DNA from: Nymphaea colorata
Taxonomy: Eukaryota > Streptophyta > Magnoliopsida > Nymphaeales > Nymphaeaceae
Length of the DNA stretch: 64,000 bases
Assembly: GCF_008831285.2 (NCBI RefSeq)
Contig: NC_045147.1
Coordinates: 11,721,427 to 11,785,426, forward strand
Reading direction: 5' to 3'
In this document: positions 16,819 to 59,261 of the stretch, piece after piece
How positions within the stretch are numbered: position 1 is the first letter of the stretch
Layout: the number at the start of each line of letters is the position of its first letter
The notes under the pieces: generated by a model
What the model saw: only the letters and a program-made list of their open reading frames with translations
What the model was told of the DNA's origin: nothing
Databases searched by the model: none
Position numbers and translations under genes: made by a program

Positions 16819-16823
16819 GAAAG

Positions 16824-17272: not shown

Positions 17273-17273
17273 G

Positions 17274-17285
17274 TGGTATCAGAGA
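17274..17285 (+). other. R3 primer-binding site
   Basis: TGGTATCAGAGA follows the LTR by one base. It matches the initiator-methionine tRNA-type copia primer site. Confidence 0.85.
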
Positions 17286-17398
17286 CAAGTCAATTGTGTT
17301 GTCGTGATTATTGGTAAAAGTGCAAAAGAGAGGCTTGCAAGGTAAAGTCTGCACATAACTTGTTCGACAAAATTTCTGCGAGAAATTTTTGTTCATTA

Positions 17399-21901: not shown

Positions 21902-23992
<2,091 letters not shown>

Positions 23993-26217: not shown

Positions 26218-28990
26218 GCATATATAGAAACAGGGCCTCTAATTACAAATTGAAGTGAACTCTATGATCAAGTTCCGCAGAAGCAGACGAAAGCAACACA
26301 AAGATGGAACGACACCCAACGAAGCACCTAAGCATATGCTCTCTCTACATCCTAATCAAAGCAACTAAAACTATTCATTTCTCTCACCATTGTGGTCGGC
26401 CTTCTCTACCTCTCTCACCAAATGAAGCAGCAGGAACCTTAATGGTCAATGAAATGGAGAGCAGGATTATGTACGCATATATATAGGCCAGCACCAAGTG
26501 GACCAATATGTTACTCGTGCAAAATTTGGTGAAGATACCACTTTAATCGAAGCCTTTGCAATCTCTTCTTCACATTTTAAAAACTTTAAAAAATTATATG
26601 TAAACCTAAAAAAATAGTTTAATATGTATATAAAACTTAAAAGTTTTTATTTCGACCATATTAAAATTGAAATTATAGTTTGATTCTTGAGACAAAAAAA
26701 TTTCTAGAGTGGGCCAGATGTCGAAACCAGTGGACAGATTGTCTTCCACTACAAGCGGACGACGACGAACATAATTGTGTCTCCCTGGCTGAGGGGTATG
26801 CCCTGTCGCATTTATCCAAATATCAATAGATAAATAACATAATTTGTTTGGGCTGGCATGAGAAATTGCTCCTACCAACCCACACCTCCACATTGGCCAC
26901 ATCTTATTGCCTTAATTTGTCGGCAGCTTGAATCTGAACCCCATGGAGCCTAACTTGAACCATATCATATACGATCCGTATAAGGTGATTCCAGTAAGGT
27001 CTTTAACCTGACAAATTGGAGTTGGCTAAGTGGGTTAAATATAATGTTACTGTTGCATGCATCTATTTCAAAAATACTGTAAATTCATGCAATACTTTTT
27101 AAAAGTGTATGATGAATCTAACTAATTTTTTGGTTAGATGCATGAGAACAATAACATTATTATTATGTTATTGTTTCCAAACAGTTTTTTAAGAATCGAT
27201 TGGCAACCAGAACATTTTTCACCAAAACATTTTGAAAATGTCTCATAAATCTGGTGCCTAGTTGAAATCTACCATAATATCTCTGATTCCAAACAGCCTT
27301 TTTAAGAGTATTAATTGATGCAAGAAACGTTTTTCATGCAAAAAAATATGTGTTGGTGAAAGACAAAAAAAAATTCTCCACCAAAAATATTAAAAAAAAT
27401 GTTTCACCCGTTTTCCACGTGTTCTGAAATGCGCTTACCAAATGTCCTTAAGGTTAGGTAGGAACACACGGGCCACTGCCTTTATCAGCTGACATAAATT
27501 ACTTATTTATATACAAGTGTCCCTTAAACTGTTAGTGACATTTAGCTAGAAATTTTAGATTACTCGCCGCAGTTCTAAGAGGCTATATTCAAAATGTAAG
27601 GTGGTCTCGGTCATAGCAAGTGGGTCCAATGTAGGGGCGATGCATATCCATACAACATCTTTATGTAATATGGTGCATATCTGTATACATCCTCTATAGT
27701 CTAGATATGCGTTGCAGAAACCATCTCTTGCTTACACGAACATTTCTAAAAATCTTCATTTGGCATTGTAAAAGTTTTTGAAACATAAATTTGGCTCTCC
27801 TTAAAAAAATTTCAACGGTTTCTTTGAAAATTTTCAGCCACCCAAAAAAAAAATTGTGGTCAATGCAGCAAAAACAAATTAATCTTCGAAAGAGAGGAAG
27901 AAAGAACAAAGTGAAGAAAGCAGGTTAGAAAAAATTATTTGGCAAGTCAAGAAAATAGGTTAGAATATAGTTCCAAATAAAGTCAAGGAACTAGTCTTTA
28001 GATTGCTTGGGAAACATTTCTGCATTAGAAAACTATTCTTTGAAATTAAAAGAGAAAGTAAACTTGAAAATTACGTTAGAAAATGCCAACTGTTTGAAGT
28101 TGCTCTCTTTTATAGTGCAAACACGTCCCTAGCTTTGAAATTGCTTTTGAGCACGTGCCCATGAATTTTTCACCAAGGGGGTTCGAATAATAGTTTCAAA
28201 ATTTTAACAACATATAATTTTTTAAAATTCTTAACAATTACATCTAAAAATTTTGTTTTTGAAATTTTGAGAGGGGCCAAGGCCCTGCCATCCCCTTGGC
28301 TCCGCCCCAATTTGAAATTGTTTTTTGAAAACACTATCCTGAGGGCTGGATTTAACATAGTTTTTTGAAAGGTTTTCAATGTAGATAGATCTGAAATTTT
28401 TTTTGGAAGAGTTTCAATTGAATTTGAATTTTATTTGAACAATTTCCAACATGAGGTTCAATTTGAAATTTTTGTTGAAAGATTTCCAACACGAGGGCTG
28501 GATTATTTGAAATTGTTTTGACAATGTCAGCTCAGAGATTGGATTTGAATATGGATTTTAAAACCATTAATCCAGAGGTTGTGTTTGGAAAAAGATTGTG
28601 AAAATGCCCGTTCAGAGGCCGGGTTTGAACTGGACGTCAAGTAGAAAGGCCAAGAGCTTTCAAACAGATAATCAAATGGCTGATGGGAACCATGCAGACA
28701 AAGGAGGGGCACCTACATACGAGTAAAATAAATTGTTCAAGAAACCAATGTAAAAAAAAAAAAAACATTTGCCAGACTGTGTGGGCGGATGCCCACACAA
28801 GCCCAATGCATGCAGACTCACCATTGAGTTCTGATTATAGCACTACCAAAGGAGAATATTTTATGTTTGGGACAGGAATGAGTTCAGTATGTTGCTTCGT
28901 GTACATAACGAGTGTATGATGAATGTGGATCATACTTTCAAAATTCATATTTACTTTAATGTCTTAACATTGCATTGTGTATAACCAATA
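26218..28990. other. upstream flank of SDR copy C, with TATA-like motif
   Basis: No gene. Leader and promoter-proximal sequence (26218-26500) is conserved with copies A and E. TATATATA on the minus strand at 26477-26486 is the likely core promoter. GGATTATG (26464-26471) beside it is the unoccupied form of the hAT target in copy E. Beyond that the AT-rich flank matches 48270-51640. It includes a copy of the dispersed GGCGGAGCCA repeat (28146-28310) and, from 28300 to 28640, a run of loosely repeated TTGAAATTGTTTT/GAGGGCTGGATT phrases. Confidence 0.7.
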
Positions 28991-29867: not shown

Positions 29868-32800
29868 TCAAAAGTCGGCATCCTTCCTTTCCAGGAAGTT
29901 GCGGCCGGAAGGGCCGCCGGCAGGCAGAAGAGCAACGTGCGCCAAGTTCGCAGCCCCTTCCGCCGGAGAGAAGTCGCCGGAGCCAAAGGTCATGTCAGTC
30001 GTCACATAGCCAGGGTGCACGCTGTTGACACAAGCTTTGTCGCCCAATTCAAGGGCCAAGAGCCTCGTGTAGGCGTTCAACGCAATCTTGGAGATGCAAT
30101 AAGAGGGAAACTTAAGGGGCCATTTCTCCATGCCCTTCTCCGACTTCACGTCGTCAAGGAACATGGCCAACACACCGTCGATCTTCTGCTCAGTCAAGCC
30201 CATCGTGTCACACAGTTGCTGCCTCAACTCCTCGTCCCTTAGATGCTGTCACCACCATTGTTGATCTACAGTAAAAAACTCTTTCCCAAGAAATATTCTG
30301 ATACAATGGAGAATAGTAAAGTGCATGGCTAGATTTTTTTTTCTAAGGATGCAATATATAATTTTCAGGATTGATTCGACTAAATTAAAATTTTTAGAAA
30401 TATTGAACGGTAGATTTTAATTTTTCATAAACTGATGGAGCCATGGCCCCTGCCCTCGATCATGATATATATGTTATGGCCGCAGGGACCACATTATGCA
30501 TCAGAAATTAACAAAATGTGCTATTTATTAAATGGAAGGCCCCTTACCTTATAAGGATAAAAGCTGAACAAAATTTCACCGTATTAAATTACCAAAACAC
30601 CCCACAGTAAAACGTGGGAACAAGTTTTTCCATATTAATGGCATCACATGGAAAATGTCTTTCAAGGGATGCCAATATATCCAATTTGAATCAGATATCC
30701 GATCGAAACATAAAAAATTCAGGTATAGAAAAAACTTTTATGTCCGATTAAGATAATTGAATCGGATTCTGATTTAAGAAATGACGTTTTCGGATTGAAG
30801 TATATATAAATATCTGATCAGATTCAGATATGAATATAAAGATTGTATTCAGATCGGATTTGAATGGTGAAAGTTGATTTCGGATTCGGATATGCATTTT
30901 GTTCATTCACATTTGAATCCAAATTTGAGTCCGACTATATGAACATTTGAAAGAGGAATGTACTTAAGAGTATATGTGGTTCAAATCCGATTTGTTGACA
31001 TCCCTATCCATGGTCTGGACATGTACGCGCTCGTAGCATATGTCCATCTCCAGAATGGGTGGCCTCCTCATTAATCTGAAAGGAAACAACAAAAAATTTG
31101 TTGGGTGAGCTCAAATATCGGACCGACCCACATGGACGGTTCGGTCATACTCGATTTGAAATAATGGAAGAATTTCATGTTAAAGAATTGGACTTACACA
31201 TGATAGTCCATAGTTGGATGAGACGTTGACAATCCTGGGCTTGTAAGAAGTGGGACGTAAGAGAGGAAGCAGCGCCTTGGTCAATCTCTTCGTTCCATAA
31301 AAGTTGGTCTATACTCGATTTGAACTAATGGAAGAATTTCATGTTAAAGAATTGGACTTACACATGATAGTCCATAGCTGGATGAGACGTTGACAATCCT
31401 GGGCTTGTAAGAAGTGGGACGTAAGAGAGGAAGCAGCGCCTTGGTCAATCTCTTCGTTCCATAAAAGTTGGTCTCTATGTTGTGCTTTGCCGATTCATAC
31501 TTCTCCGAAATCCCCTCCGTCCATGTAGGATGTGCCTGTGTGCAAAAAGTGAGTGGAGAGAGATCAGCAAATCAGTATTGCACAAATCACTTAAAGTTTT
31601 ATATGTATATATAATGTGGTCGAATTGCTAAAAAGATTAGAAAGTGTCACTAAAATCTTTAGTCACCGCCATTAGTGATGATTTGTGGTTTAACTAAGAG
31701 TTAATTGTCTTTTTTAGTGAAAGGTTATAATTTTTTATTCATTTGGCAACATCAGAGGCAGCCAACTGATTTCAATTCTGGATGGCTAAAACTTTAGAAA
31801 CCATACTTATACATATACACTAGAATAATCTGTCAGTCTGCAACAAAAATAAATCGCTTAAAATGTTGTTATATATAGGAACTTTCAAGAAGACCAATAA
31901 AAGCTAATTAAATGGCTTGAGTTCACTTTACTCGATCAAGTTCATCTTGTTTGCCTAAACGAGTTATCTCAAATCTTTCTGCTGTCATTTGCCCACACAA
32001 ACGAGGTAGCACGTTTTCCGTTACCCCAATCAAGCTCTTACCTAATAGTCATCATATATGGATTGACTTAGGAGCTTGATGCAGTTAGTCGCCTTTTCAC
32101 TTACAAGCAAGTGATGCTGAGTGTGTGCATGTTTGAGCTTCCAACCCAAACACCCATGGGCAGAGCCAAGAATTTTTATAGCGAGGGATAGTTTTAAAAC
32201 GTTTAGAAGGCTGAAATATAATTTTTAAATATATATATATAAGATAAATGAAGATTTTTAAAATTTACATGCAAATTGTTAAAAAAAAAATTCTTTAAAG
32301 GGGTGCCGGTGTCCCTGCCAGCCCCCTTGATAACACTGTTTGGGGTTACTTAAAGATCTTATTGTGAGTGTGACTTTTTAATTTGACCAAATGGAGGCTG
32401 GTTAAATGACGAGAGCTCGCTTAAATCCAGCTTACCTTGTTTGCCTAAATAACTTGCTCGAACTTGTCTTGTTTTACAAACAAGCTAAGCTTGGAGCCTT
32501 GGATAGGTTTTGAGAAGTTGAGATGGACAAGCCGAATTCAGTAGTGAACGCTTGGTAATGGAAACCGTAACATGTCCCAATGTTAATACACATTTCATTA
32601 AACTATCCTAGAATGAAACAGTTTATTCCCGGTTGGCATAACCACCAATGAAAATATGAAACAATTTGTTACTGTTTTCATTACCAACTTGTTCTGCACG
32701 TTACCCCAACTCTTACCTGACAGATTTTTTTGGAATCTTCCTCTCAGACCTTTTAAACTAATTAAAGGGGAAGAAGAAGATGCTTGACAGGTTGAAGAAA

Positions 32801-33877
32801 TCTTACGGCAAGCAGCAGCACTCATTAATTTAAGATGGCATGAGACAGAATGGCATTAATAAATTCCGCCGCTTTGCCAGATAATATGGCAGCTTTTTAT
32901 TGGGCTAATACTGTTATACTTTTTACTTTTTTACTATTTTATTTACGTTAAGACACAAAATAGCCGATAGGCTGACGTGCGTTGGACGATCTTGGAAAAA
33001 TTCTTGAAAATCATTTCTTTTGACTATCTAACGATGCTTTTTTCTACAAAATGAAACATGAAAAACAAGGATACATGCTGTTGGATTTTTTAAGAAATCA
33101 TTTTGATACATGAAAAAGAGATGGATGATGAAAGACAACTTTGGAATTTTGATATAAGAAAAGGAATTCAGCATCTCTTCCACGCATGGTGGATTTTTGT
33201 AAAACAACTTTGAAATTTCGATATAAAGAAAGGAACTCAATGCATAGAACCCTTGCTCAAAGCATTACATGTTGTTCAAATAATCGGTAAGATTGAAATG
33301 TATCTGGAGATGAGGTCGAGAGAGTACCACGATGGTTCTTGTGTCGATGTTGTTCCTTTTCACGAAGTCCCAATCTATCACTGGGTTGGCAACACCAGCA
33401 TTATTTACCTGCAGTTCAAACAATTACATCCATCACCGAGCCAAACTCCCACATATGTAAACTTAGCTCAACATGTATTTTTTCAGCAGGGAAGAACGAT
33501 CATTTGTCTTTTTGTAGCGTCTGAAAGAATTTTACCAGAATATCGACGAACCAATCAAGTGATTTCAACCAATCAACGAAATCCAACACACTTTGCTCTT
33601 GAGTGGTATCCAGAGTGTGGAAGATGACCTTCTTTCTCCCCATTTCTGCTGCTTCTTGCAGGAACTGTTGAGCAGAGGATGAGAGTTGTTCCTGGGGCTT
33701 ACGAGCAGTCATGATGACGGTCAGCTCCTTGCCTGCGAGCTGCCAGCATATCTCCAGCCCGATCCCTCTGTTCGCTCCCGTCACCACCGCCACCGTCTCC
33801 CCACTCCACCACTCTGCTCCCTCTCCTGCCTGCAACCAAGAAAACAGACACCATGTACCTGTGATTTCGTGTAGCAT
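29868..33877 (-). CDS. SDR copy E: intact short-chain dehydrogenase/reductase, menthol/salutaridine-reductase type
   Basis: Predicted cytosolic NADPH-dependent carbonyl reductase of the plant neomenthol-dehydrogenase/salutaridine-reductase group. The substrate cannot be told from sequence. Exons: 33536-33877, 33328-33408, 31362-31535, 29868-30245, all phase 0 with GT/AG borders, giving 324 aa (family about 295-315). The cofactor motif TGANRGIG is at residues 33-40, NNAG at 116-119, helix Asn at about 164, catalytic Ser at about 193 in NVSSSYG, and Tyr248/Lys252 in YCISK. The ATG at 33877 adds about 16 residues before AGEGAEWWSGETVAV, so the true start, or a short upstream exon, is uncertain. 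ICWQLAGKE differs from ICRQLAGKG in C. A 14-kb hAT lies about 255 bp upstream. It is the only copy without a visible coding lesion. Confidence 0.82.
31147..31474 (-). repeat. 164-bp tandem duplication containing the 3' part of exon 3
   Basis: Units 31147-31310 and 31311-31474 are nearly identical. The unit covers about 113 bp of exon 3, its donor site and 51 bp of intron. The downstream copy lacks the exon 3 acceptor and 5' part, so it lies in intron 3 as a partial pseudo-exon with its own donor near 31197. Copy A has a single unit here. Confidence 0.9.
32156..32335. repeat. dispersed GGCGGAGCCA repeat, copy E intron 2
   Basis: Colinear with 12029-12200 in copy A: GGGCAGAGCCAAGAATTTTT at the left, AT-rich core, and GTCCCTGCCAGCCCCCTTG at the right. 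It was present before the A/E duplication. Confidence 0.6.
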
Positions 33878-34123
33878 ACATATATAGAAACAGGGCCTCT
33901 AATTACAAATTGAAGTGAACTCTATGATCAATTTCCACAGAAGCAAAGCAAATCAACACAAAGATGGAACGACACCCAACGAAGCACCTATGCATATGCC
34001 CTCTCTACATCCTAATCAAATCAACTAAAACTATTCATTTCTCTCACCATTGTGGTCGGCCTTCTCTACCTCTCTCACCAAATGAAGCAGAGGGAACCTC
34101 AATGGTCAACGAAATGGAGAGCA

Positions 34124-34131
34124 GGATTATG
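34124..34131. repeat. left 8-bp target-site duplication of the composite hAT
   Basis: GGATTATG, repeated exactly at 48253-48260. Copy C has the single unoccupied form at 26464-26471. Confidence 0.92.
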
Positions 34132-34189
34132 TAGGGGGTGGGCATCGGGTCGGCCCGTTGGGCCCCAAACCTGGGTCCGGGTCCGGCCC

Positions 34190-34440
34190 GATGGAGGGAA
34201 TGGGGAAGAAAGGGAGGGCGAGAGGGGGAGGAGGTGGAGGCGGAGGGGAGGGAAGGGGGAAGAAGGAGAGGCAGAGGGGGAGGGGAAGGGGAAAGAAGGA
34301 GAGGTGGAGGAGGTGGAGGCTGAGTGGGGGAAGGGGAAAGAAGGAGAGGCGGTGGGGAAGGGGGAAGAAACAGAGGATGGGGGACCGGAGAAGGAGGAGG
34401 TGGAGTCAGTGGCGGAGGGTGGGGGCCCTACCCCAAGAAA
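34190..34440 (+). repeat. purine-rich low-complexity tract
   Basis: Almost pure GA/GGA sequence near the hAT left end. It is much shorter in the second body (43194-43215). Open frames across it (34052-34514) are compositional artefacts. Confidence 0.85.
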
Positions 34441-35439
34441 ATGAAAAAGAAAATTTTAATTATAAAAATTTAAAAATTTTATTACTTCTATATAATATTT
34501 GGATCCGGGTTTAATTTGGCTCTACCTGTATCCAACTCCAAGTCTCGAACCCACAAAACCTGGCCCACCCCCCTTCGCTTTGACCTGTTTCAACATTTGG
34601 GGGAAAACACCGGCTGCGCCAGAGAGAGACGGAGAGATTAGAGAGTGCGAGGGGGGAGAAAACGAGAGACAAAGAGAGAGGGACATGGTCTAATAGAGAA
34701 ACACTAGTGAGAAAGGGAGCAGTAGGAGAGACCAAGAGACAAGAGAGCAGTGACTACTGAGCACGCTGTTGGCTTCAGGAAGAGGTGGGGCTGTTTCCTG
34801 ACTTTCTTTATTTTAGTGGTCTTCATTTTTGTTGGATAGTGAATTATGGTGGGGCCGTTTCTTTCATACTTTAGCTTTTCTTTTTCTTTTTCTTAACCTT
34901 TTCTGTCATTTTCTTTTTCTCTCCGTTTTATGGTGGGTTTCTAATTTCTATTCGGCACATTTTTTATTTTTTAACCTTGATCTTTCACTGTGAATCTATT
35001 ATTGTCTCCTGTTGACCTCTTTTACTGTGTTGCGCTTAAGTCTTAACTCTACTGTTGCCCTGCCGTGTTCAGTTCCTTCTTAGTTCTTCCTAATCTTTGT
35101 TTATTATGTGTGTGTGTGTTAGTGTGTGACAGTGTGAGTTTTGTTCTTTCCTTTAACTTAATCGTCAAGATTTCCTGATGTTGAACAACTAACCTTTATT
35201 ATGTGAATGTTGCCTTGCCAAGACGCAGCGAAGATTCATGTTTGTGTGTGTGTGCTATGCTATACAGACTGATTGTCGTTGCTTTGTCTTTCTAGATGGA
35301 AGCTTTGGTTATGAAAGAAATTTGCAATTTTTCAACATGAAATTTACACATTCCTTATACTTTATGGACTCCTCTTCCACATACAATATTGTTTTGGATC
35401 AGGAGGGTGTTTGTTCAGGTTGAAGAGCATGATAGAAGT

Positions 35440-35738
35440 TGTTAAGGAAATAGATGTCAAACCGTGTGAAGCATTAAGGAAAGAGGCAATCAAGGATTAC
35501 CGTGTGGAGAAATAAGGCAAGAAAATGAAGATTGGCAATCAGGAATTGCCGTGTGAAGATTCATTCCAGCGAATGAAGATTTTCAAATGATGTAACTCCT
35601 TAACATATGTATAGCTGCCTCATCACGTTGTATCTAGTTACCATTTCTGTATCAACCGTGTAAACATTATAAATACAGTGAAAACTCTTGCAAAATAAAT
35701 AACAAGAGATTTACTCACTTGCTTGTGTCGTTTCTTCA
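35440..35738 (+). repeat. R4 5' LTR
   Basis: Starts TGTTAAGGAAATAGATG and ends GTTTCTTCA, 299 bp, directly followed by the primer-binding site. Confidence 0.95.
35668..35675 (+). promoter_or_regulatory. TATA box of the R4 LTR
   Basis: TATAAATA about 70 bp before the LTR end, in the position expected for the U3 promoter. Also present in the 3' LTR. Confidence 0.6.
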
Positions 35739-35751
35739 TGGTATCAGAGCC
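35739..35751 (+). other. R4 primer-binding site
   Basis: TGGTATCAGAGCC directly after the LTR, complementary to the initiator-methionine tRNA 3' end as in most plant copia elements. Confidence 0.92.
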
Positions 35752-36252
35752 AGGCTTCATATTTTCTTATGCAGCCTTGGTTTCTCTGCGCGGTCATCGG
35801 ATAGGTCTCTCTTATCCAAATTCCTGCTGCTCTTCTGTTCAGCCATAGTTCCTTTCTTTTTCAGCGTACCTGTTCTGCAGCAAACCGTCGCCAGTGCCTT
35901 CCTCTGATTGTACCCAAAACCATCTGCCTGGAATCCTCTGTTTTTCGTCCGCCTCCCTTGCTGTTTCTTCTTCCTCTTCAACGTGTGAAACAGGGTTTCA
36001 GCCCTTCACTTCAAGAACCCGGCGCCTCCTCTGTTCTCATTTTAGGTTTACCCTACGTCGAGTAGAGGAGACCCAGCCGTCATCTCCAATCGCTCGCAGC
36101 TTGCCCGACGAGCTCTGCCCACTGCTTCCCAGCCGTCATCTCCAACCACTCGCCCACCATCTGCCCAATCGTCATCTACCCACTGCCGAACAGCCATCAT
36201 CCGCCCACCGCTCGCCCATGCCGTCATCCGCCCACTGCTCGCCCCTGCTGTC

Positions 36253-36380
36253 ATCCGCCCATCGCTCGCCCCTTGCCGTCATCCGCCCACCGCTCGCCCT
36301 TGCCGTCATCCGCCCACCGCTCGCCCTTGCCGTCATCCGCCCACCGCTCGACCCTGCCGTCATCCATCCATCGCTCGCCC
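36253..36380 (+). repeat. 27-bp minisatellite in the R4 leader
   Basis: About four to five units of CGCTCGCCCTTGCCGTCATC plus CGCCCAC, with small variations, in the untranslated leader between primer site and gag. The 214-codon open frame at 35894-36538 crosses it (SPLALAVIRPPL repeats) and is probably not a gene. Confidence 0.85.
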
Positions 36381-36580
36381 CTTGCCTCACGAGCCCTGCC
36401 CACTGCTCGACCCCTTGCCCGACAAGCTCCTGGCAGACCACTAATCCTTGCCCTTTTCACTTCCGCTTCCTTCTCGTATTAAGGTTTTTCCTTCCCTTTG
36501 GCTGCGGCACCCTATTTTTCTTTTGGACATTATATTAAGCACATATTGTCGATTTTGGACTTCATTGGTGTCTAAGTACC

Positions 36581-39500
36581 ATGGCTGCTCCGTCGCCTAT
36601 ACAATGGAACGCTGCTGCAGCGTTGGTCTCCATCAAACTCAATCGAGATAACTACTTGTTATGGCGAAGTCAACTAGAGTCTGTAATGGACTCTCAAGAT
36701 CTTCTTCAATTTGTTGATGGGACTCAAGTCGAACCACCAAAGGAGATAACAAAGGACGGCAAATCTGAAGTAAATCCAGATTTTATAGCATGGAGAAAGC
36801 TGGATCGACTTGCATTAAGCTAGATCAAGGCAACGGTCACTGAAGCTATCTTGGGGCAGATTATGCGTGCCAAAACTGCCTATGATGCTTGGTCGACTCT
36901 TGAGAAATCATATGGTTCTCAGTCTCCTTTGAGAATCATGTTGCTGCGTAAAGAGTTGCTTCTTATCAAGAAGGGAAGTATGTCTATGCAAGCTTATCTA
37001 GATCAAATCAGATTTCTTTCGGATACTTTATCTACTGCTGGTCAAGAAATTTCTGATCAAGATTTAGTACAAGTCACACTTAATGGATTATCGTCCGAAT
37101 ATGAAAGTTTTATAACCATGCTTACTGGCCCATCATCATCAAATCTTTCATTTTCTGAACTTTTTGATCTTCTGGTCAATCAAGAAAAACGGCTTGCCCT
37201 ACTTAAGTCGACTTCAATAAACTCGACTGAATTTGTTCAGCCAGCATCGCAGATTGTCAACCAAACTGCATTCAATGTTTTTTGTGGGCAACGCCGAGGC
37301 CGAGGATTTTTTCGTGGTCGAGGAGGAAGAAATCAAGGTGGTCGTGGATATCAATTTCAGGGACGTGGAAATCGGCCTCAGTCACAAATACAACCTGGTA
37401 CGACCAATTCACAATACCAACATCCTCCTATTGTTTGTCAATATTGTGGACGGAAGGGGCACTCAGCTCGCACATGCTATGACATTCCACAAGCCTACTC
37501 TGCCATGAGTCTGCAGGACTCATTAAATGAATACTGGTACCCAGATACAGGGGCTACAAACCATACTGTAGCAAGTGATGATATGATGCACAACAAAGCT
37601 CCTCAGGATGGACAAGAAAACGTCATGATTGGTAATGGCTCTCGCCTTTCTATTAAACATATTGGTGATCTATTAGTTGATGTTGATGGGAATTCCTTTA
37701 AACTAAAGAATACTCTCCATGTTCCCACTATTGCTCACAATTTGTTATCAGTCGGAAAATTTACTACTGATAATGATTGTATTTTTGAGTTCTCACCATA
37801 TGAATTTGTGATCAAGGATCGGCGAACAAACAGGATTCTTCTTCAAGGACCAAAGAAGCGTAATGGACTCTATCCCATTGCGCTTAAGTGAGCTAGCGAG
37901 AATCAAGAAAGAGCCGCCTTCAGCAGTTGGTTTTCACGTCAAAATAATGCAGCCTCATATGAATTATGGCATCGCCGGTTAGGACATGCGAATAAAAGGA
38001 TTGTGAATCTTTTGAATACTAGTTGTTTGATTTCAATAAATTCTTCATCTCGAAAAGAGATCTGTGAATCATGTCTTGTTGGCAAAATGCATAAACAATC
38101 ATTTCCTTCTTCTGATTTTCATGCTTCTCGAGTTCTTGAAGTTTTGCACATGGACGTTTGGGGACCAGCTCCAGTACTCTCCAAGGATGGTTTCAAATAT
38201 TTTCTTCTAATAGTTGACAATTTCTCTCGCTACTCATGGTTATTTCCTTTAAAGACAAAATCAGAAGTGGTTGACTGTGTTTGCAATTTTAAGGTCTTGG
38301 TGGAAAATCAATTAAGTTCTAAAATTGCCACCATTCAATCAGACAATGGAGGAGAATTTTGCAACAAGGTGTTGGAGTCATTCTGTGAAGAAAATGGAAT
38401 TCTTCATCGATTTTCATGTCCCTATACGCCCGAGCAAAATGGCATAGTGGAAAGGAAAAATCGACATGTTGTTGAAACCGGTTTGAGTATGATACATGAC
38501 TCTGGCCTCGATTATAAGTTCTGGGTCGAATCTTTCAGAACGGCAGTATATATTATTAATCGGCTCCCGACTCTCAAGCTCAAACGAAAGACTCCTTTTC
38601 AATTGGTGTTTGACAAGGTGCCTGATTATACTCATCTACGAGTTTTTGGAGCCATATATTATCCACTGCTTTCTCTATCAAACAGCACCAAATTCCAACC
38701 AAGGACCACTCGATGCATTTTTCTTGGCTATGCAAGCAGACATAAAGGGTATCTCTGTTATGATACTACACTTCAAAGGACTCTTATATCTCGACATGTA
38801 ATTTTTTATGAAAGTTTGCATATTGGGCATTCACCACCAACTTTTGATTCTTCTCTATGGATGCCCAGGGCTCAAATTGATCAAGGTACGTTCGATCTTG
38901 ACCACAGCAACTCTCATAACATGAGCACTTCACTAGTCGAGCCGACATATCAAGAACATCTGCTTTCATTAGTCAATCCTGCATCATCACCATCTCATCA
39001 CCAAAGTTCTTTTGTGCCACACGTCGTTGAACTTCCAGCCTCTCATTCAGACATGTCTGTCTCTCCTTTACAAGATCTTGCTGAAACTACATTCATACCA
39101 CGACAACCAAGCCCGTTGTCACTGGTAGATAATCTTATGCACACACACGAGGCTGAAAATGGAGCAATACATGAACTTGCTGAAAGCTCATCTATCACTC
39201 GACCAGATCAGCATACTCACCCTATGGTCACCAGATCAATGACCGGTTCCTTGATACCAAAAACTTTTTGTGCTATATTCGATCAAAAGGAACCATCCTC
39301 TTTCAGAGAAGCAATCAAACATGGTGATTGGCAGCAAGCAATGAAGCATGAGATCAATGCACTCAAAGAAAATAAAACGTGGCGACTCATTCCCCCACGT
39401 TCTGACCTTCATGTCATTAGCTCAAAATGGGTGTACAAGATTAAGCGGAATGTTGATGGGACCATCGCTAGACATAAGGCACGTCTTGTTGCTCGTGGTT

Positions 39501-40906
39501 TTCTTCAAGAAGAAGGCATCAACTACTCGGAAACATTCAGTCCAACAATAAAACCCACTACTATTAGGGTTTTACTTTCCTTAGCCATACAATATGGGTG
39601 GCCTCTTCATCAACTTGATTTTGACAATGCTTTTCTTAATGGCTACCTTCATGAAGATGTCTATATGACTCAACCTGAAGGATTTGAAGATCAAAAACAT
39701 CCTACTTATGTATGCAAACTGGAAAAAGCTATCTATGGTCTTAAACAAGCACCCCGAGAGTGGTATCAACGGCTCAGTTGTCATCTTCAAAAGCTTGGTT
39801 TCTTCATCTCACAATCGGATGTGTCACTGTTTATCTATTCCAAAGACAAACATAACATTTACATACTTGTTTATGTTGATGACATAATTGTTATTGGCTC
39901 GTCTCCATCTCTTATTGATTGGGTTATTCGACAACTCCAGGTTACATTTTCAGTAAAGGATCTTGGACCCTTATCGTACTTTCTTGGGATTGAAGTCAAA
40001 AGGACAGCACACTCATTATATCTATGCCAACATTCTTATATCACCAACATCATCAAACGTACCAATATGGCCAGGGCTAAGCCTACTGCTTCACCGATGA
40101 GTACTAGTAAAGACAAAGCATCATCTCCGACGTCCTTTGATGATCCTTCATTGTATCGAAGTGTGGTAGGGGCGTTACAATATGCAACCCTTACTAGACC
40201 GGATATAGCGTTTGCTGTTAATCGAGCATGTCAATTCATGCATTCTCCTACAATGAATCATTGGATCATGGTGAAGAGAGTCTTGCGATACTTGAGTGGC
40301 ACCAGTCACTATGCTTTGCACTCCAAAAGATCGTCAACATTGCAACTCTGTGCTTTTGCAGATGCTGATTGGGCCGGAAGCCCAAAAGACCGAAAATCTA
40401 CAGGTGGATTTGCTGTGTTCCGAGGAGAAAATGTCATATCTTGGGCTTCTAGAAAACAAAGAACTGTAGCCCGATCCAGCACTGAAGCGGAATACAAATC
40501 CCTAGCATGTGCAGCTGCTGAACTACTTTGGTTAAAAGCTCTTCTCAAAGAATTAGGGATAAATTCCTCATCTTCACCTGTTCTCTGGTGTGACAACATT
40601 GGAGCATTATACCTTGCAGCTAATCCAGTCTTTCACGCTAGAACTAAACATGTGGAAGTGGATTTTCATTTTGTTCGAGATCATGTCAATCAAGGAAATA
40701 TCCAAGTTAAATTCATACGCTCCGCTGAGCAAGTAGCTGATGGAATGACGAATGCTCTCAGCACTGGTTTATTTCAATCATTTCGAGGCAAGCTAAACGT
40801 GGCTGATCCAACGTTCAGCTTGAGGGAGCATGTTAAGGAAATAGATGTCAAACTGTGTGAAGCATTAAGGAAAGAGGCAATCAAGGATTACCGTGTGGAG
40901 AAATAA
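36581..40906 (+). pseudogene. R4 gag-pol polyprotein, one frame with two stop codons
   Basis: A single frame of 1,441 sense and stop positions from the ATG at 36581 to the final stop at 40904-40906. In-frame stops: TAG 36821-36823 in gag and TGA 37889-37891 between protease and integrase. Order: UBN2 gag, RG-rich linker, knuckle CQYCGRKGHSARTC (about 37437), protease WYPDTGATNH, gag-pre-integrase LWHRRLGHAN, integrase HMDVWGP / IQSDNGGEF / EQNGIVERKNR, reverse transcriptase with intact YVDD (about 39875), and RNase [17 protein letters not shown] and SSTEAEYKS. All catalytic residues I can check are present. The last 25 codons lie inside the 3' LTR. Confidence 0.92.
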
Positions 40907-41129
40907 GGCAAGAAAATGAAGATTGGCAATCAGGAATTGCTGTGTGAAGATTCATTCCAGCGAATGAAGATTTTCAAATGATGTAACTCCTTACCATATG
41001 TATAGCTGCCTCATCATGTTGTATCTAGTTACCATTTCTGTATCAACCGTGTAAACATTATAAATACAGTGAAAACTCTTGCAAAATAAATAACAAGAGA
41101 TTTACTCACTTGCATGTGTCGTTTCTTCA
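40831..41129 (+). repeat. R4 3' LTR
   Basis: 299 bp, same ends as the 5' copy. It also carries the C-terminal codons and stop of the polyprotein (to 40906). Confidence 0.95.
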
Positions 41130-42189
41130 GAAGTTACTTATGTTCAAAGCCCAAACATCAGGTAATGCATCTCTATTTGTTTCCACATTTAATTTTTTTT
41201 GTAAGGGACTTTTACTTTTCTTTATCTGTTTATAGTTGTTGCAATCATGCATGTTGGCATGATCATGCATTTCACTTCGATGTTTGTAATGGGCACATGG
41301 AATGTCCAAGTATTTCTTCCTACCCTTGCTGGGCTGTCAGAGTCCTCTTTCAAACTCAAGATCATCCTGCCTAAGACTAGGAGATAATACATTACAGTGG
41401 CCTTTCCCAAGGAAGGCTTAGTGTTCAAGATCTTGCTTGCAAATGGTTGTATGATATGCCATCAGGAAGCAGAGACCATTAATAATCTATTTGTTAAGTG
41501 CAAAATCACATGGCTAGTCTGAAAAAAGATTCCAGGTACATTTAATGTTTTATTTAAGAGGTCTACAACTCTTAACGAGTTGCTGCTGCTATGGTGAAAG
41601 AAGCGATTTAAATTGAAATAGGTAAGAACATGGGTGAAGGAAGCGATTTAAATTGAAATAGGTCAGAACATGTTGAAGAGTGAAGACTATCTTTCACCAT
41701 GACAATATGCAACACTTGGAAGCAACAAAATTCTATCATCCAAGAAGGGGATAAGACAAACAATGACATGTTCAGAAATTTGAGGAGAGAATTTAAGATT
41801 CTAATGTGTGAGCTGGAATGGAGACCAAAGGTTAACCGGGGGATGCTTATGTGGTTTTCATCATTTGCAGTATGAGTGTGGCATCCATAGGAATTTATAA
41901 AAGTAATTTCATAAAGGTCTAACATCATTCTTTGTTTCATTTTTCAGACTTCATTCAACTCGTGGTAATTCGAAAAGCAAGTTAGCGAAGGGAGAAAACA
42001 ACTCTTCGTTGTTCTACAGAGTGCAAGAGGTTCAATAGGTGAATATTGTATTCTTTATTTATTGTTTATAAGGTGGTTGGTTTGGTTCTAAATTCCTGCT
42101 TTTCATAGGTTAAAATTTTATTACTTTATTCGATGTGTATAAATTTTGTTCTCTATTTTGAATTTCAGTTTTTTTGTGTTAGCTTATTT
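41130..42189 (+). other. left hAT body, non-coding 5' region after R4
   Basis: Matches 44224-45240 in the right hAT body (introns or leader before the transposase). It has a short local duplication at 41600-41670 (GAAGCGATTTAAATTGAAATA twice). No independent gene seen. Short open frames here are not conserved in frame between the two bodies. Confidence 0.7.
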
Positions 42190-43193
42190 AGAAGATAAAG
42201 AAAAATATTCAAGATTATTTCAAAAAAAAACAAGTTATTGATCAATTGGGAGAAAACCAAGAGTGAGAAAACAAAAATGTTGGTTGTTCTAGTCTGAAAG
42301 CTCTTGATGTTGTTCTTTTTGACTCAGATTCTCCACCTTTTAAGTATTCAAAAATTGAAACTATAGAAAGCATCGTGCGTGATCCAGGGTCGCGACGTCC
42401 TATATGGGAGATACAAATAAATAAGAGAGATTAAGTTATGCGATCAATTATGGGTCATATCAGCATAAGCTTCATAGATATCCAGTGTCAGGTCTTTCAA
42501 GTCATCCTCGTAAATTTCAAGGTTCTTGGTTTCAAAGATTTTCATGGTTAGAATATTCTCCAAAGACAGATAGTGCATATTGTTTACCATGTTATATTTT
42601 CAGTACTCCACATTCAAATGACAGTCCATTTATTACTGAAGGATTCAGAGCTTGGAAGAGGGTGGGTGGTATTGAGAGAACATGTGTTTTTCGTAGTCAT
42701 AAAGGGACTAGTCAAAATTCACCTCATAATATGAATGTGTGAGGATTTAATGACTTAAGTCTTTAAAGCAAACATATTGATAAAATGATGGAAAAGTAAA
42801 GTTCAGAGCTTGTTTACAACGATCGCTTGAGATTGAAGGCATCTGTGGACGCAGTTTGTTGGTTAGCATTCCAAGCTTGTGTTTTTAGATGTCATGATGA
42901 AAGTTCAAGTTCATTGAATCAAGATAACTTTATTGAGTTCATTAAAATTTTAGCTAATTATAAGGACAGAGTTGCAGAAGTTCTTTTGGATAATGCCCCC
43001 AAAAATGCTAAATACACATCACCAACAATTCAGAAAGAAATTTTGCATGTTTTTTAAAGTAAAGTGAGAGCTAAAATTATAGAAAAAATTGGTGATGCAA
43101 AATATTGTATTATTATTGATGAAGCTCAAGATGAGTCCAATTGAGAGCAAATGGTTGTTGTTCTTAGATTTGTTAATAAGCAAGGTCAAGTTC
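42190..43193 (+). pseudogene. hAT transposase, left body, truncated
   Basis: N-terminus KKNIQDYFKKKQVIDQLGEN, then DPGSRRPIWEIQINKRD and a TAA stop at about 42432. After a frame change come the TTF-type zinc-finger region (SWLEYSPKTDSAYCLPCYIF, 42548-42607) and part of the DUF4371-like region (42890-43057). It breaks off at about 43193, where sequence of the second body begins. Extra stops compared with the right body include NMNV-stop and HVF-stop. The dimerisation domain is missing. Confidence 0.88.
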
Positions 43194-45236
43194 GATGGCA
43201 GAGGGAGAGGGGGCCGCCTGGGCCATGGCCCTACCCCAAGAAAATGAAAAAAAAAATTAATTACAAAAATTTAAAAATTTTATTACTTCTATGTAATATT
43301 TGGATCTGTGTTTAATTAGGCCCTACCCGGATCCAACTTCAAGTCTCTAACCCACAAAACCGGGCCCGCCCCCTTTTGCTTTGCCATGTTTCAACATTTG
43401 GGGGAAAACACAGGCTGCGCAAGAGAGAGACGAAGAGATTAGAGAGGGCGAGGGAGGAGAAAACGAGAGACAAAGAGAGAGGGAGATGGTTTGATAGAGA
43501 AAAAAGAGTGGGAAAGGGAGCAGCAGGAGAGACCAAGAGACAAGAGAGCACTGACTACTCAACACCTGCTGGCTTCAAGAAGAGGTGGGGCCATTTCCTG
43601 ACTTTCTTTATTTTAGTGGTCTTCATTTTTGTTGGGTAGTGAATTATGGTGGGGCCGTTTCTTTCATACTTTAGCTTTTCTTTTTCTTTTTTCTTAACCT
43701 TTTCTGTCATTTTCTTTTTCTCTCCGTTTTATGGTGGGTTTCTAATTTCTATTCGGCACATTTTTTATTTTTTAACCTTGATCTTTCACTGTGAATCTGT
43801 TATTGTCTCCTGTTGACCTCTTTTACTGTGTTGCGCTTAAGTCTTAACTCTACTGTTGCCCTGCCGTGTTCAGTTCCTTCTTAGTTCTTCCTAATCTTTA
43901 TTTATTATGTGTGTGTGTCAGTGTGTGACAGTGTGAGTTTTGTTCTTTTCTTTAACTTTTTCCTGATGTTGAACAACCAACCTTTATTATGTGAATCTTG
44001 CCTTGCCAAGACGCAGCCAAGATTCATGTTTGTGTGAGTGTGTTGTGCTATACAGACTGATTGTCGCTGCTTTGTCTTTCTGGATGGAAGCTTTAGTTAT
44101 GAAAGAAATTTGCAATTTTTCAACATGAAATTTACACATTCCTTATACTTTATGGACTCCTCTTCCACAGACAATACTGTTTTGGATCAGGAGGGGTGTT
44201 TGTACAGGTTGAAGAGTAGGATAGAAGTTACTTATGTTCAAGGCCCAAACATCAGGTAATCCATCTCTATTTGTTTCCACATTTTAATTTTTTGTAGGGG
44301 ACTTTTACTTTTCTTTATATGTTTATAGTTGTTGCAATCATGCATATCGCCATGATCATGTATTTCACTTCGATGTTTGTAATGGGCACATGGAATGTCC
44401 AAGTATTTCTTCCTACCCTTGCTGGGCTGTCAGAGTCCTCTTTCGAACTCAAGATCATCCTGCCTAAGACTAGGAGTACATTACAATCGCCTTTCCCAAG
44501 GAAGGCTTAGTGTTCAAGATCTTGCTTGCAAATGGTTGTATGATATGCAATCAGGAAGCAGAGACCATTAATCATCTATTTGTTAAGTGCAAGATCACAT
44601 GGCTAGTCTGAAAAAAGATTCCAGGTACATTTAATGTTTCAATTAAGAGGTCTACAACTCTTAAAGAGTTGCTGCTGATGTGGTGAAAGAAGCGATTTAA
44701 ATTGAAATGGGTCAGAACATGCTGAAGAGTGAAGACTATCTTTCCCCATGACAATATGGAATACTTGGAAGCAATGAAATGCTATCTTCCAAGAAGGGGA
44801 TAAGATAAACAATGACCTGTTCAGAAATTTGAACAGAGACATTGACATTCTAATGTGTGGATTGGAATGGAGACTAGAGGTTAACCGGGGGATGCTTATG
44901 TGGTTTTCATCATTTCCAGTATGAGTGTGGCATCCGTAGGAATTTATAAAAGTAGCTTCGTAAAGGTCTAACATCTTTCCTTGTTTCATTTTTCAGACTT
45001 CATTCCACTCGTGGTAATTCGAAAAGCATGTTAGCGATGGGAGAAAACAACTCTTCGCTGTTCTACAGAGTGCAAAAGGTTCAACGGGTAAATATTGTCT
45101 TTTTTATCTGTTTTTATAAGGTGGTTGGTTTGGTTCTAAATTCTTACTTTTCATAAGTTAAAATTTTAGTACTTTCTTCGATGTGTATAAATTTTATTCT
45201 CTATTTTAAATTTCAGTTTTTTTGTGTTAGCTTATT

Positions 45237-47618
45237 GAGAGGATGAAGAAAAATATTCAAGATTATTTTAAAAAAAAACAAGTTATTAATCAATTGGGAG
45301 AAAACCAAGAGGGAGAAAACAAAAATTCTGGTTGTTCTAGTACGAAAGCTCTTGATGTTGTTCTTTTTTACTCATATTCTCCACCTTTTAAGTATTCAAA
45401 AATTGAAACTATAGAAAGCATCGTGCGTGATCCAGGGTCGCGACGTCCTATATGGGAGATACAAATAAATAAGAGAGATTAAGTTATGCGATCAATTATG
45501 GGTCATATCAGCATAAGCTTCATAGATATCCAGTGTCAGGTCTTTCAAGTCATCCTCGTAAATTTCAAGGTTCTTGGTTTCAAAGATTTTCATGGTTAGA
45601 ATATTCTCCAAAGACAGATAGTGCATATTGTTTACCATGTTATATTTTCAGTACTCCACATTCAAATGACAGTCCATTTATTACTGAAGGTTTCAGAGCT
45701 TGGAAGAGGGTGGATGGTATTGAGAAAACATGTGTTTTCCGTAGTCATAAAGAGACTAGTCAAAATTCGCCTCATAATATGAATGTGCGAGGATTTAATT
45801 ACTTAAGTCATTAAAGCAAACATATTGATAAAATGATGGAAAAGCAAAATTCAGAGCTTGTTTACAACAATCGCTTGAGATTGAAGGCGTCTGTGGATGC
45901 AGCTCGTTGGTGAGCATTCCAAGCTTGTGCTTTTAGAGGTCATGATGAAAGTTCAAGTTCATTGAATCATGGTAACTTTATTGAGTTCATTAAAATTTTA
46001 GCTAATTATAACGATAGAGTTGCGGAAGTTGTTTTGGATAATGCCCTCAAAAATGCTAAATATACATCACCAACAGTTCAGAAAGAAATTTTGCATGTTT
46101 TGGCAAGTAAAGTGAGAGCTAATATTATAGAAGAAATTGGTGATGCTAAATATTGTATTATTGTTGATGAAGCTCGAGATGAGTCCAAGAGAGAGCAAAT
46201 GGTTGTTGTTCTTAGATTTGTTAATAAGCAAAGTCAAGTTCAAGAGCGATTTTTATATGTTGTGCATGTGAGGGATTCTACAGCAATTACGTTGAAAAAT
46301 GCAATTTCTACTTTGTTGTCTAAACATAATCTTAGTATTCAAGATATACGGGGTCAAGGATATGATGATGTATTATGTTCATTGTTTTGCTCATAGATTA
46401 CATCTTACACTTGTTGCAGCTTCAAGAGAAGTTGTTGATGTTCATAGCTTTTTTAAACAGTTGACATATGTAATTAATGTTGTTAGTGCAAGCAGTAAAC
46501 GTAATGATGAACTACGTGAAGCTCAAGCAAATAAAATTGCACTTAGAATTGCTATAGTTGAACTTCAAACAAAAAAATGACTTAATGAAATTAATTCACT
46601 ACAGCGGCCTGGTGAGACTAGATGGGGATCTCATTTTTCATCTTTGTATAGTTTGATAAAAATGTTCGATGCAGCATGTGTAGTATTGAAAAATTTAAGA
46701 GACAATGGATCAACATATCAAATACGAGGTGAAGATAATTCAGCTTACAAAATGATAACATCATTTGACTTTGTATTTATTTTACATTTTGTACAAGAAA
46801 TTTTGAGATAGAGTGATATTCTTTGTCAGGCATTGGAGAGGGATAGACATGACATTATAAATGCAATGACTTTGGTTTATAATTCAAAAAAGTTTTTACA
46901 AGAACTTAGAGAGACTGGTTGGGATTCATTTATAGATATTGTGGGAGTATTTTGTATGAGACGTGATATCTCCATTTCAGATATAGATGAACAATATTTT
47001 GTAAGAAGATCACGTTCCCGTTGTGAACGTAATTTCATTACAGTGAGACATCATTATCATGTTGATATTTTTATTACTGCCATTGATTCTCAGCTGGTAG
47101 AGTTGAATAGTAGATTTAATGAGAATTCTATGAAAATACTTCGTTTGATGTCGAGATTCGACTCTAGAGATCAATATGAGTCTTTTAATGCACGAGATAC
47201 ATACACTCTTGCACAGAAGTTTTATCTTGAAGATTTTCTAGACCCAGATTTTATGGGTTTAAATTATCAGTTGAAACATTACAAAAATAATATTTGTCAT
47301 CATCCAAGCTTTTAAAATTTGGGTACAGTATCAGATGTATGTGAAGTATTCATATGAAGTAGAAAAAGTGAAGAATATTCTTATGTATACAGGTTGCTTA
47401 GTCTCATTCTAACACTTCTTGTCTCTACTGCAACCACAGAAAGGGCATTCTCTGTTATGAAACTTATTAAAACAAGGTTGCGTGATAAAATGGAGGATGA
47501 ATTCTTTGCAGATTGTCTACTTTTGTATATTGAGAAAGAAATTACTCAAATATTTGATTCAGATGATATTATTGATGTCTTTTATAAGATGAAAAGTGGT
47601 AGAGCACAATTACAATAG
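45237..47618 (+). pseudogene. hAT transposase, right body, full length but broken
   Basis: Zinc-finger MYM/TTF-type hAT transposase. Order: N-terminus MKKNIQDYFKKKQ (45243); TTF zinc finger around YCLPCYIF (45625); DUF4371/RNase H-like core with CIIVDEARDES (about 46155) and CFAHRLHLTL (about 46385); GETRWGSH (about 46610); C-terminal hAT dimerisation domain LVSTATTERAFSVMK (about 47410-47600). Lesions: TAA at about 45480 shared with the left body, frame changes near 45490 and 46370, and stops near 45812, 45910, 46578, 46808 and 47312. A GA(S)N-type segment appears deleted at GQGYD/DV. Not functional. Confidence 0.9.
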
Positions 47619-48050
47619 GTAAAGTATTTTGTTGCATCCTTTTTATGTTAATGTTTATTTGAGTTATTATTTAGTTGCAATAATAAATGATATAGTTTTT
47701 ATTTACATTTTATTATGCAGGTGAATGAATGATGGTATGGAACTATTTTCAATAAAAATAAAGGCAAAAACTGATTGTGTTACATAGAAAGAATGCAAAA
47801 TTAGTTGTTTTGGGTAAGTAATATTTACTTTAGTTTTCGAGTTTGTAAATATCTTTGTTTGCTATATTTTTTGTTGTGATATTTGTATGTTCACTTTATG
47901 TTCACACATACGTCACTGTAATAGAAATAGAGCACCTTATCTGTTTAGGACAGATCGTGCTTTGTGCTAATGACACAAACAATTATTAAAATGTGCCGTT
48001 ACAATTAAAATATGTCGGGTACTTGTACGTAAGACGTGGACAATTTTATA

Positions 48051-48119
48051 CGACATATGTTCACTTTTAATTATATACGACATATGTTCACTTTTAATTA
48101 TATACGACATATGTTCACT
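48051..48119 (+). repeat. 27-bp tandem repeat, about 2.6 units
   Basis: CGACATATGTTCACTTTTAA plus TTATATA repeats at 48051, 48078 and 48105 (period 27), just inside the hAT right end. Sub-terminal repeats of this kind often hold transposase-binding sites. That role is inferred. Confidence 0.8.
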
Positions 48120-48252
48120 CCTGGAGGAGGAGGATGGGGACGGGAGGAGGAGGACGATGGAGGACAGGCCTGGCCGGGCCCAGCCCGGGACCCGGTTTTC
48201 CCGGGCAGGGTACCGGGTACCCGCCGGCAGCCCGGCCCGACATCCAGGCTTA

Positions 48253-48260
48253 GGATTATG
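48253..48260. repeat. right 8-bp target-site duplication of the composite hAT
   Basis: GGATTATG, identical to 34124-34131. Confidence 0.92.
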
Positions 48261-49439
48261 TATGCATATATATAGGCAAGCACCAAATAAACCAATATGT
48301 TACCAATGCAAAATTTGGTGAAGATACCGCTTTATTGAGAACCCCTGCAACTTTTTTCGATTTTAAAAGCTTTAAAAAATTATATGTAAATCTAAAAAAT
48401 TTTAGTTTAATATATATATATAATTTAAAAAAATTTATTTCAGTCTCATTAAAATTTTAAAACTATAGTTTGACTGCTGTGGCAAAAAATTTCTGGCATA
48501 CATGCTGAATCTGGTATATTATTGAGTGGGTCAGACGTCCAAATAGAGTGGACAGATTGTCTTGCACTATAGCTGTGCACGACGTACCCCACGAACACGT
48601 AATCAATACATAAATAACCTAATTTGAGAATTATGTTACTCTCCTTATGCGTGTTACTCTCCTTTTTAGCTTTGAGAGTTATAGCTGAGGGGTATGCTCT
48701 CTCGCATTTATGGAAATATCAATACATAAATAACCTAGTTTGTTTGGGCTGACATGAGAAATTGCTCCTACCAGCCCACACCTCCACATTGGGCACATCT
48801 TGTTGCCTTAATTTGTCGGCAGCTTGAATCTGAATCTCATGGAGCCTAACTTACCTAAGACGTACGGGACAAAAGCAAAGCATATCATATGCAATCCATC
48901 TATGGCGCTTCGATTAAGGCTTTGAACATGTCAAATTGGAGTCAGCTAAGTATGTTTAAGAGCTGTTTGGGAATAATATGTTATTGTTCCATGCATCTGT
49001 CTCAAAAATACTATAAATTCATATAGTACTTTTTAAAAGTGTTTGATGAATCTAACTAATTTTTGGGTTAAATGCATAAGAAAAATAACATAATGTTATT
49101 GTTTCCAAACAGTTCTTTAAGAATGATTTTGCAACGAGGACATTTTGAAAGTGTCTCATAAATCTACTACCTAGTTGAATCTAACATAATGTCTCTCATG
49201 CCAACAGCCTTTTAAGAGTATTAATTGATGAAAGAAACGCCTTTCATGCAACAAAATATGTGTTAGTGAAAGACAAAAAAAAAATCTCCAACAAAAATAT
49301 TTAAAAAAAAAATGTTTCACCCATTTTCGACGTGTTCTGAAATGCGCTTACCACATGTCCTTAAGGTTAGGTAGGAACGCACGGGCCATTGCCTTCACCA
49401 GCTGACATAAATTACTTATTTATATACAAGTGTCCCTTA

Positions 49440-50217
49440 GGCCACGTTTGATGGCCTGGATTTTTTCATAGGGAAGATTTTTTCAAGGGAAAAAATCCAG
49501 GGTAAGTTTACCTAAGGTAAAGTTTCCTTCTTCCATTTTCAGGCCATGTTTGATGGCCTGGAAATCTTTTTCGAGGTAAAAAATTCAGTGTTCGTCGTCT
49601 TGGTGAGGGGAGAAGGTGAAGCCGGACATCCCTCACCTCCCCTTACAGCCACACCGCACTCACCGCCATCACTGCTGCCAAGCCATGGATATGGCTGGTC
49701 ATGGGACGCGTCTGCGCCAGATCCCTGCTTGCCGGAGGTAAGTACAACCGAATGGGCTGCGTTGAGCTCTCCCAACTCCAGTGTGCATATGGTAGGAGAG
49801 GGGAGGAGGAAGAAGAGGAAGAATGAGTGAAGTGTGGGCCGCCGTGCAGTGGCCCTTGCCTCTTTCCTCTCCCTTCCACTATTAGTGGATACGGCCCTCC
49901 CTCCACCCTCCCTTATCCTTATGCGGCTGGTGTTGGCATCCATCAGTGCCAGCGTTGCCATCGGAAGAGGTCTTGCGCTCCCTCTCGGCTTTTCACAGCG
50001 CCCTTCTTCTCCGTCGCCCTTCCTAATGGGCAGGAAAAAAATCCACGGAAAAAAGTCGGACCTCTGAAGGTCCGACTTTTTTCCGGGGTAAAGTTACCCT
50101 TATCGTACTGTTTTTGCAGAGGAAAATTTCCTGCGTTTGATATGCTTGTGAAAAACCGTACAAAAACGGTAAATTTCATCCCATGCACAGTAATATCTGC
50201 GCGCATCAAACGTGGCC
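49440..50217. mobile_element. Harbinger/Tourist-like non-autonomous element
   Basis: 778 bp with perfect 14-bp inverted ends (GGCCACGTTTGATG). It is flanked by TTA on both sides (49437-49439 and 50218-50220). Copies A (near 16430) and C (near 27520) carry the uninterrupted flank; in A the join CCCTTAAAG is exact. TTA target duplications and GGCC-starting ends are typical of PIF/Harbinger. A second copy of the left-end sequence (GGCCATGTTTGATGGCCTGG) lies at 49543, so the left part was duplicated. No transposase. The open frames on both strands (49539-50248) are not conserved proteins I recognise. Confidence 0.88.
50046..50085. repeat. perfect 18-bp hairpin inside the Harbinger-like element
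   Basis: Arms 50046-50063 and 50068-50085 are exactly complementary around a CTGA loop (core AAAAAAGTCGGACCT). No mismatches. Confidence 0.95.
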
Positions 50218-58954: not shown

Positions 58955-59261
58955 CGATCCAATCCGATCCAACACCCTCTTCTTCAGAGAGTGAGAGAGA
59001 GAAGGGGGAGAGAGAGAGTTTGGTGATCAGAGTGGATCTAGGAAGACGGATTGCAGACTGAGAGGGAGAGAAATGGAAGTGATTAAAAAAAGCGAGATCT
59101 TATCGGACGGCTGAGAGTTAGATTTGAGAGGGAAGGGTGAAGGCCGGCCGATGGATGGAGGAACAAGTAGATTCTTTGTCACGCGACGAATGAACCGTGT
59201 CGGCAGAGGGAGGAGGGGCATGATGTGGCGCCAAGCAGGTCAATGAAATTTTTTTATAACT

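Follow-up and report, generated by a model that had tools for sequence, protein, structure and literature searches.

The Bg/rbg elements of maize are hAT transposons, and mPing of rice is a miniature inverted-repeat transposable element (MITE) of the PIF/Harbinger type. In the description of the maize opaque-2 allele given in PMC3887028, rbg is an element of about 4.5 kb with an 8-bp direct repeat, situated between the TATA box and the initiator codon, 250 bp from the ATG, and loss of the opaque-2 transcript was measured. The mPing insertions near rice core promoters, as outlined in PMC3782648, are short and non-autonomous, carry core-promoter-like motifs of their own, and were studied for stress response with measured expression. 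In this study, a 64-kb stretch of Nymphaea colorata DNA (C10:11721427-11785426; hereafter the window) was analyzed, which contains three copies (A, C, and E) of a gene for a short-chain dehydrogenase/reductase (SDR). An insertion lies above copy E. As the TATA motif of this copy is split from its predicted transcription start by a nest of transposable elements, copy E has probably lost its normal promoter.

Insertion site and presumed old promoter of copy E

Copy E is on the minus strand. The features that define the insertion site, in positions of the window, were as follows.

34051-34123, minus strand: remaining leader of copy E, with the predicted start at about 34115
34124-34131: left copy of the target-site duplication, GGATTATG
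48253-48260: right copy of the target-site duplication, GGATTATG
48265-48275, minus strand: TATA motif CTATATATATG, presumed old core promoter of copy E, approximately 14.16 kb from the predicted start
26464-26486, minus strand: uninterrupted equivalent of the site in copy C, reading CTATATATATGCGTACATAATCC

The 8-bp GGATTATG flanks the segment 34132-48252 on both sides. Its frequency in the window is near chance (3 occurrences against 2.32 expected from shuffles, which is not unusual), the third occurrence being in copy C at 26464-26471, where it is single; therefore, the 8-mer alone proves nothing, and the insertion claim is carried by alignment of the flanks. When the flanks of E were joined at one copy of the duplication, the gene (minus) strand read GCCTATATATATGCATACATAATCCTGCTCTCCATTT.. 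and was collinear through the site with copy C and copy A, the latter having a longer TA run in the alignment. This bore out the duplication that had been proposed at these two places in an earlier note on the window. In self-comparison of the window, C 25838-26473 matched E 33495-34133, and C 26463-26705 together with further pieces matched E 48252-48494 and beyond. With a duplication and a collinear empty site, the insertion above copy E is genuine.

Identity between C and E falls above the site, where 52 of 268 positions differ in the first 300 upstream bases, compared with 17 of 299 in the leader and intron 1. The insertion was considered as the cause of this drop and rejected, because A and C, both free of the insertion, also diverge upstream (50 of 223 against 29 of 296 in the same two regions); the step is steeper in C-E than in A-C.

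The motif CTATATATATG was found exactly twice in the window, on the minus strand at 26476-26486 (copy C) and 48265-48275 (copy E), with a mean of 0.00 in shuffled sequence. The order on the gene strand is CTATATATATG-CATA-CATAATCC-leader. The earlier note had stated that C and E share a motif followed by GGATTATG and then the leader; this is correct on the gene (minus) strand, but TATATATA..GGATTATG, read literally along one strand, gave 0 matches at gaps of 0-20.

Among 21 matches from 20 scored candidates, six places reached the leader: E, C, A, the two C1 copies, and P6, the last by a short match only. Each of these six paralogs, the ones whose leader can be aligned, has TATATATA immediately upstream of it (E only with the flanks joined), compared with 1.8% of the 60-base stretches in the window. 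Since the paralogs are related, these six count as about three lineages. Upstream of the ATG, the first T of TATATATA is reached after 95 nt in both C and the joined E, and after 67-101 nt in the others, some of which carry several TATATATA within a TA run. In the C1 and P6 copies, alignment becomes poor above TATATATA. In its present, interrupted form, E lacks TATATATA throughout the 150 bases that precede its ATG.

Plant promoters have the TATA box at -50 to -20 and follow the YR rule, according to the account of core elements in PMC1832190. In copy E, a CA step at 34116/34115 is located approximately 30 nt below the first T of TATATATA, and from this spacing and the CA step the start of copy E was predicted at about 34115. 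Relative to this predicted start, the duplication is at about -16 to -9, i.e., between the TATA box and the start. We infer that the TATA motif was the working core promoter. The insertion is located between the TATA box and the start codon, as is characteristic of a promoter-splitting allele.

Composition of the 14-kb nest

The segment 34132-48252 is a nest, in which an outer hAT encloses a copia element and two pieces, in tandem, of a second hAT family. The parts of the nest, and an upstream ATG contributed by the outer element, are listed below.

34132-34406: left part of the outer element, a MITE-like, GC-rich hAT, beginning TAGGGGGTGGGCATCGGG.. and pyrimidine-rich on the gene strand
34143-34145, minus strand: upstream ATG supplied by the outer hAT, in a different reading frame from the SDR start
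34407-43193, plus strand: first piece of the DUF4371 hAT family, truncated within the transposase gene; its left end, CAGTGGCGGAGG, is at 34407
35440-41129, plus strand: copia element with long terminal repeats (LTRs) of 299 bp (98.3% identity), within the first DUF4371 piece, with GAAGT on both sides
43194-48119, plus strand: second piece of the DUF4371 hAT family, borders approximate, right end missing
48120-48252: right portion of the outer hAT, the position of its inner border being approximate

A 14-kb hAT between motif and leader had been proposed earlier. The separation itself was confirmed, with the site between the TATA box and the predicted start; however, a single 14-kb hAT was rejected, because the relatives with paired ends are short, the interior is a separate family with its own ends, and the left end of that nested family is at 34407, within the outer element. 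The share of the outer element is about 275 + 133 bases (approximately 0.4 kb), and these made the duplication.

Twelve loci with the left terminus of the outer family were fetched, one of which was the window itself. Paired ends were found in 6 of the 12, spanning 321, 422, 435, 532, 559, and 1137 bp, and were not found in the other 6. Perfect 8-bp duplications flanked the elements of 321 bp (GTGATTCC), 532 bp (ATAAATAA), and 1137 bp (ATTAGCAT) at loci L020, L022, and L027, and imperfect ones those of 559 bp (1 mismatch, L026) and 422 bp (2 mismatches, L021); the 435-bp pair at L029 was without a matching duplication (6 mismatches). The left terminus of the window's element recurs in L021, L025, and L027, and its right part is matched by L022 and L030 (48213-48252 at 90% and 48201-48251 at 86%). 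Genome-wide, the 18-base family terminus (TAGGGGTGGGCATCGGGC-like) gave 141 exact matches and a control gave 0. The two outer ends in the window match each other only in part, and are shared with the relatives as terminal inverted repeats. By its 8-bp duplication and shared terminal inverted repeats, the outer element can be assigned to the hAT elements, and by its short length, non-autonomous nature, and many copies it can be described as MITE-like.

The transposase inside the nest belongs to the nested DUF4371 family and not to the outer family. A full relative of the nested family, on contig C5, measures 4408 bp between copies of GTAATTAC, starts with CAGTGGCGGAGG and ends with ..CCGCCCCTG, and has frames matching DUF4371 (E 1.1e-64) and Dimer_Tnp_hAT (E 7.1e-10), as in a hAT. 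The DUF4371 frame of the second piece in the window is at 45962-46396 (E 2.4e-39), and the frame at 46833-47315 had no family match at 0.001. The two pieces are head-to-tail and 92.7-94.1% alike, with 34424-43193 matching 43227-46241 in fragments in the self-match. As the right end of the second piece is missing, its duplication cannot be seen.

In the simplest order, the short outer hAT would have landed first, between the TATA box and the start of copy E, and the 14 kb would then have grown in place; later insertions of the two DUF4371 pieces and the copia element into the outer hAT most likely moved the TATA box 14 kb away. Alternatively, a ready-built 14-kb nest may have transposed as one unit. 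What seems to be a single giant transposon may thus be a nest, in which no more than a few hundred bases adjoin the gene.

State and expression of copy E

The coding parts of copy E were located as follows.

34048-34050, minus strand: start codon, with the intron 1 donor GTGAGA directly after it
33536-33829, minus strand: exon 2, containing R30W and G36E
33328-33408, minus strand: exon 3
31362-31535, minus strand: exon 4
29868-30245, minus strand: exon 5, with the stop codon

The frame is open and encodes 309 aa in five exons. Exon 1 consists of the 5′ untranslated region and the ATG (34050), which is all that it codes for, and A, C, both C1 copies, and P6 share the ATG|GTGAGAG junction. Residues 13-302 of the product match (-)-menthone:(+)-neomenthol reductase 5L51 (E 7.1e-57), and an adh_short domain was detected (E 9.4e-29). 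The cofactor motif TGANRGIG and YCISK in the frame place it among the classical SDRs of the menthone/salutaridine reductase-like kind. A second copy of the 3′ part of exon 4 lies in the following intron (31139-31310), forming a tandem repeat at 31139-31474 that is 97.7% alike with a 164-bp offset. Since this second exon 4 copy is in frame and has AG in front, a transcript with both copies is conceivable.

Exon 2 has lost 1 nt in copy A and 1 nt in copy C; in addition, 29 bases of exon 3 are missing from copy A. The trio is thus complementary: A and C keep the TATA motif and are frameshifted, and E keeps the frame and is without the TATA motif. Of the further copies, which also include P3, B, and C1b, seven (P1, P2, P4, P5, P6, P7, and C1a) were tested at the exon borders from exon 2 through exon 5. 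Six of them, P1, P2, P4, P5, P6, and P7 (C10, about 11.628-11.719 Mb), had no stop in the matched stretches, had AG in front of the exons and GT behind them, at the exact position or a few codons away, and had the stop as in E; in C1a, the exon 4 match ended 10 codons early. Copy E had been regarded as the sole intact copy, and this holds within the A/C/E trio; with 6 of the 7 other copies open and bordered by GT/AG, it does not extend to the family or the genome.

Two further observations were made on the cluster. At least 10 SDR exon-2 places, several of them broken, occur in about 130 kb (C10:11628000-11775000). Whichever two of A, C, and E are compared, their similarity is higher in the leader and exon 2 than in the upstream DNA, so gene conversion among these copies is possible.

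Removal of the TATA box would leave copy E silent or nearly so. We favor the reading that E lost its native promoter and has little or no expression from the old one, and consider it rather probable. The locus would then provide a natural test, in which the TATA box was taken from a gene with an open coding part and two sisters in the opposite state adjoin.

Private changes in the copies were called against outgroups, namely the two C1 copies and P6. Copy E had 9 replacement and 3 silent private changes, and the broken copy A had 15 and 4 (15 and 3 with P7 added). Overall, E and C1a differed by 87 replacement and 67 silent changes; in exon 2, E and C differed by 6 and 0. Fisher tests gave p values of 0.24 for E alone, 0.08 for A, and 0.04 for both together, the compared sets overlapping. 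Copy E also departs from five otherwise invariant positions, by R30W and G36E (10 of 10 others) and S167T, E215D, and H299R (8 of 8). The weak replacement excess fits a copy E that is drifting, which is suggestive and not proof.

Several points weigh against a silent, drifting copy E. Its frame is open, and it retains the SDR motifs TGxxxGIG, NNAG, VSS, and YxxxK. The replacement excess in E alone is non-significant (Fisher p as above), and its private changes are undated relative to the insertion and may predate it. High replacement ratios were also observed in recent pairs of open copies (P1/P2, 0.48; P2/P4, 0.58; P1/P4, 0.58), compared with 0.67 for E/A and 0.27 for C1a/C1b; the favored reading is slightly weakened because the ratios of open sisters nearly reach that of E. 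Odd residues at invariant positions number 11 in P6, 11 in P7, 10 in A, and 8 in P5 versus 5 in E, and since the other copies carry 0 to 11 of them, E is not extreme. The open frame was also considered as a sign of selection and rejected as uninformative: with assumed indel rates of 0.2-0.05 per substitution, the probability of an open frame is 0.15-0.48 even if E has been silent since arrival of the copia element, so the frame says little either way.

Among the other possible drivers of copy E, the left end of the outer hAT may have replaced the promoter, supplying a TATA-less Y-patch core with a new start and a new pattern for E; we regard this as unlikely. On the gene strand, 34193-34406 is 91.6% pyrimidine, and the left part of the outer element contains 16 matches to Y-patch hexamers (the eight in the list given in PMC1832190) versus about 1 expected, with 0 on the opposite strand. 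Y patches are placed at -100 to -1 in the plant promoters treated there, and the near end of the pyrimidine tract is 78 nt upstream of the old predicted start, which is at the edge of this range. The tract is also general to the outer family and not selected at E, as matches were found in all 11 relatives looked at. In the gene direction, 34132-35440 has no exact TATAWAW, only one-mismatch sites, the nearest at 34464. Starts above 34145 would include the out-of-frame upstream ATG, though in a weak context, and its frame of 48 aa overlaps the SDR start if intron 1 is spliced as predicted; the SDR start's own context is strong. A substitute promoter would thus be handicapped unless the start lies below 34145. 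It is more doubtful still that the pyrimidine-rich end of the outer family is a portable TATA-less Y-patch core promoter that switched the promoter type of E, with the relatives among the 141 termini acting likewise elsewhere. If true, a portable promoter would act in what is probably an early-branching flowering plant.

It is just as unlikely as promoter replacement that the TATA motif was never essential, with the start in the leader or the drive from intron 1, and that expression of E is unchanged. Intron 1 and the part of the leader below the site are retained, with 94% and 95% identity, respectively, to those of copy C. However, TATATATA stands above the leader in 6 of 6 alignable paralogs, from about three lineages, compared with its 1.8% background, and is kept even in copies whose upstream DNA aligns poorly. 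The least probable alternative is that the old TATA box fires, with a start near 48244 in the right end of the outer hAT and the nest spliced out as a giant 5′ intron, since, although E retains its TATA motif with the upstream DNA, and CCCAG near the leader, preceded by a pyrimidine tract, is a candidate acceptor, this demands 14 kb of transcription antisense to two transposase pieces and a copia element.

Neighboring features and comparison with known systems

Other features observed in the window were as follows.

16822-21855: copia-like element above copy A, with LTR-like ends 91.3% alike and several separate frames
22735-22862: dense self-complementary repeat, parts of which match themselves in both directions
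49440-50217: insert lacking in A and C, roughly 1.2 kb upstream of the old TATA box, ending in GGCCACGTTTGATG and its complement and flanked by TTA on each side
57896-58975, minus strand: open frame of 359 aa, triose-phosphate/nucleotide-sugar transporter family (TPT, E 1e-46)
62307-63023: bVLRF1 release-factor domain, then a weak ankyrin match below cut-off

The insert at 49440-50217 resembles a Tourist-type MITE, and the domain order at 62307-63023 resembles that of ANKZF1/Vms1 proteins.

As promoter-splitting insertions are already known in plants, interest in copy E would be local unless the hAT end is a promoter. The product of E resembles the plant menthone/neomenthol reductase-like SDRs (5L51, 5LCX, and 3O26) in that the match is near full-length and the cofactor motif and YxxxK are kept. 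Unlike these, E is in a duplicated cluster with several broken copies. The outer element is similar to mPing, as characterized in PMC3782648, in being short, non-autonomous, near the start, and provided with core-promoter-like motifs, and differs in being of the hAT type. Compared with the rbg insertion portrayed in PMC3887028, copy E has an approximately 0.4-kb element holding a 14-kb nest, about 74 bases above the ATG. In both cases, an 8-bp repeat is present and an element is situated between the TATA box and the start codon.

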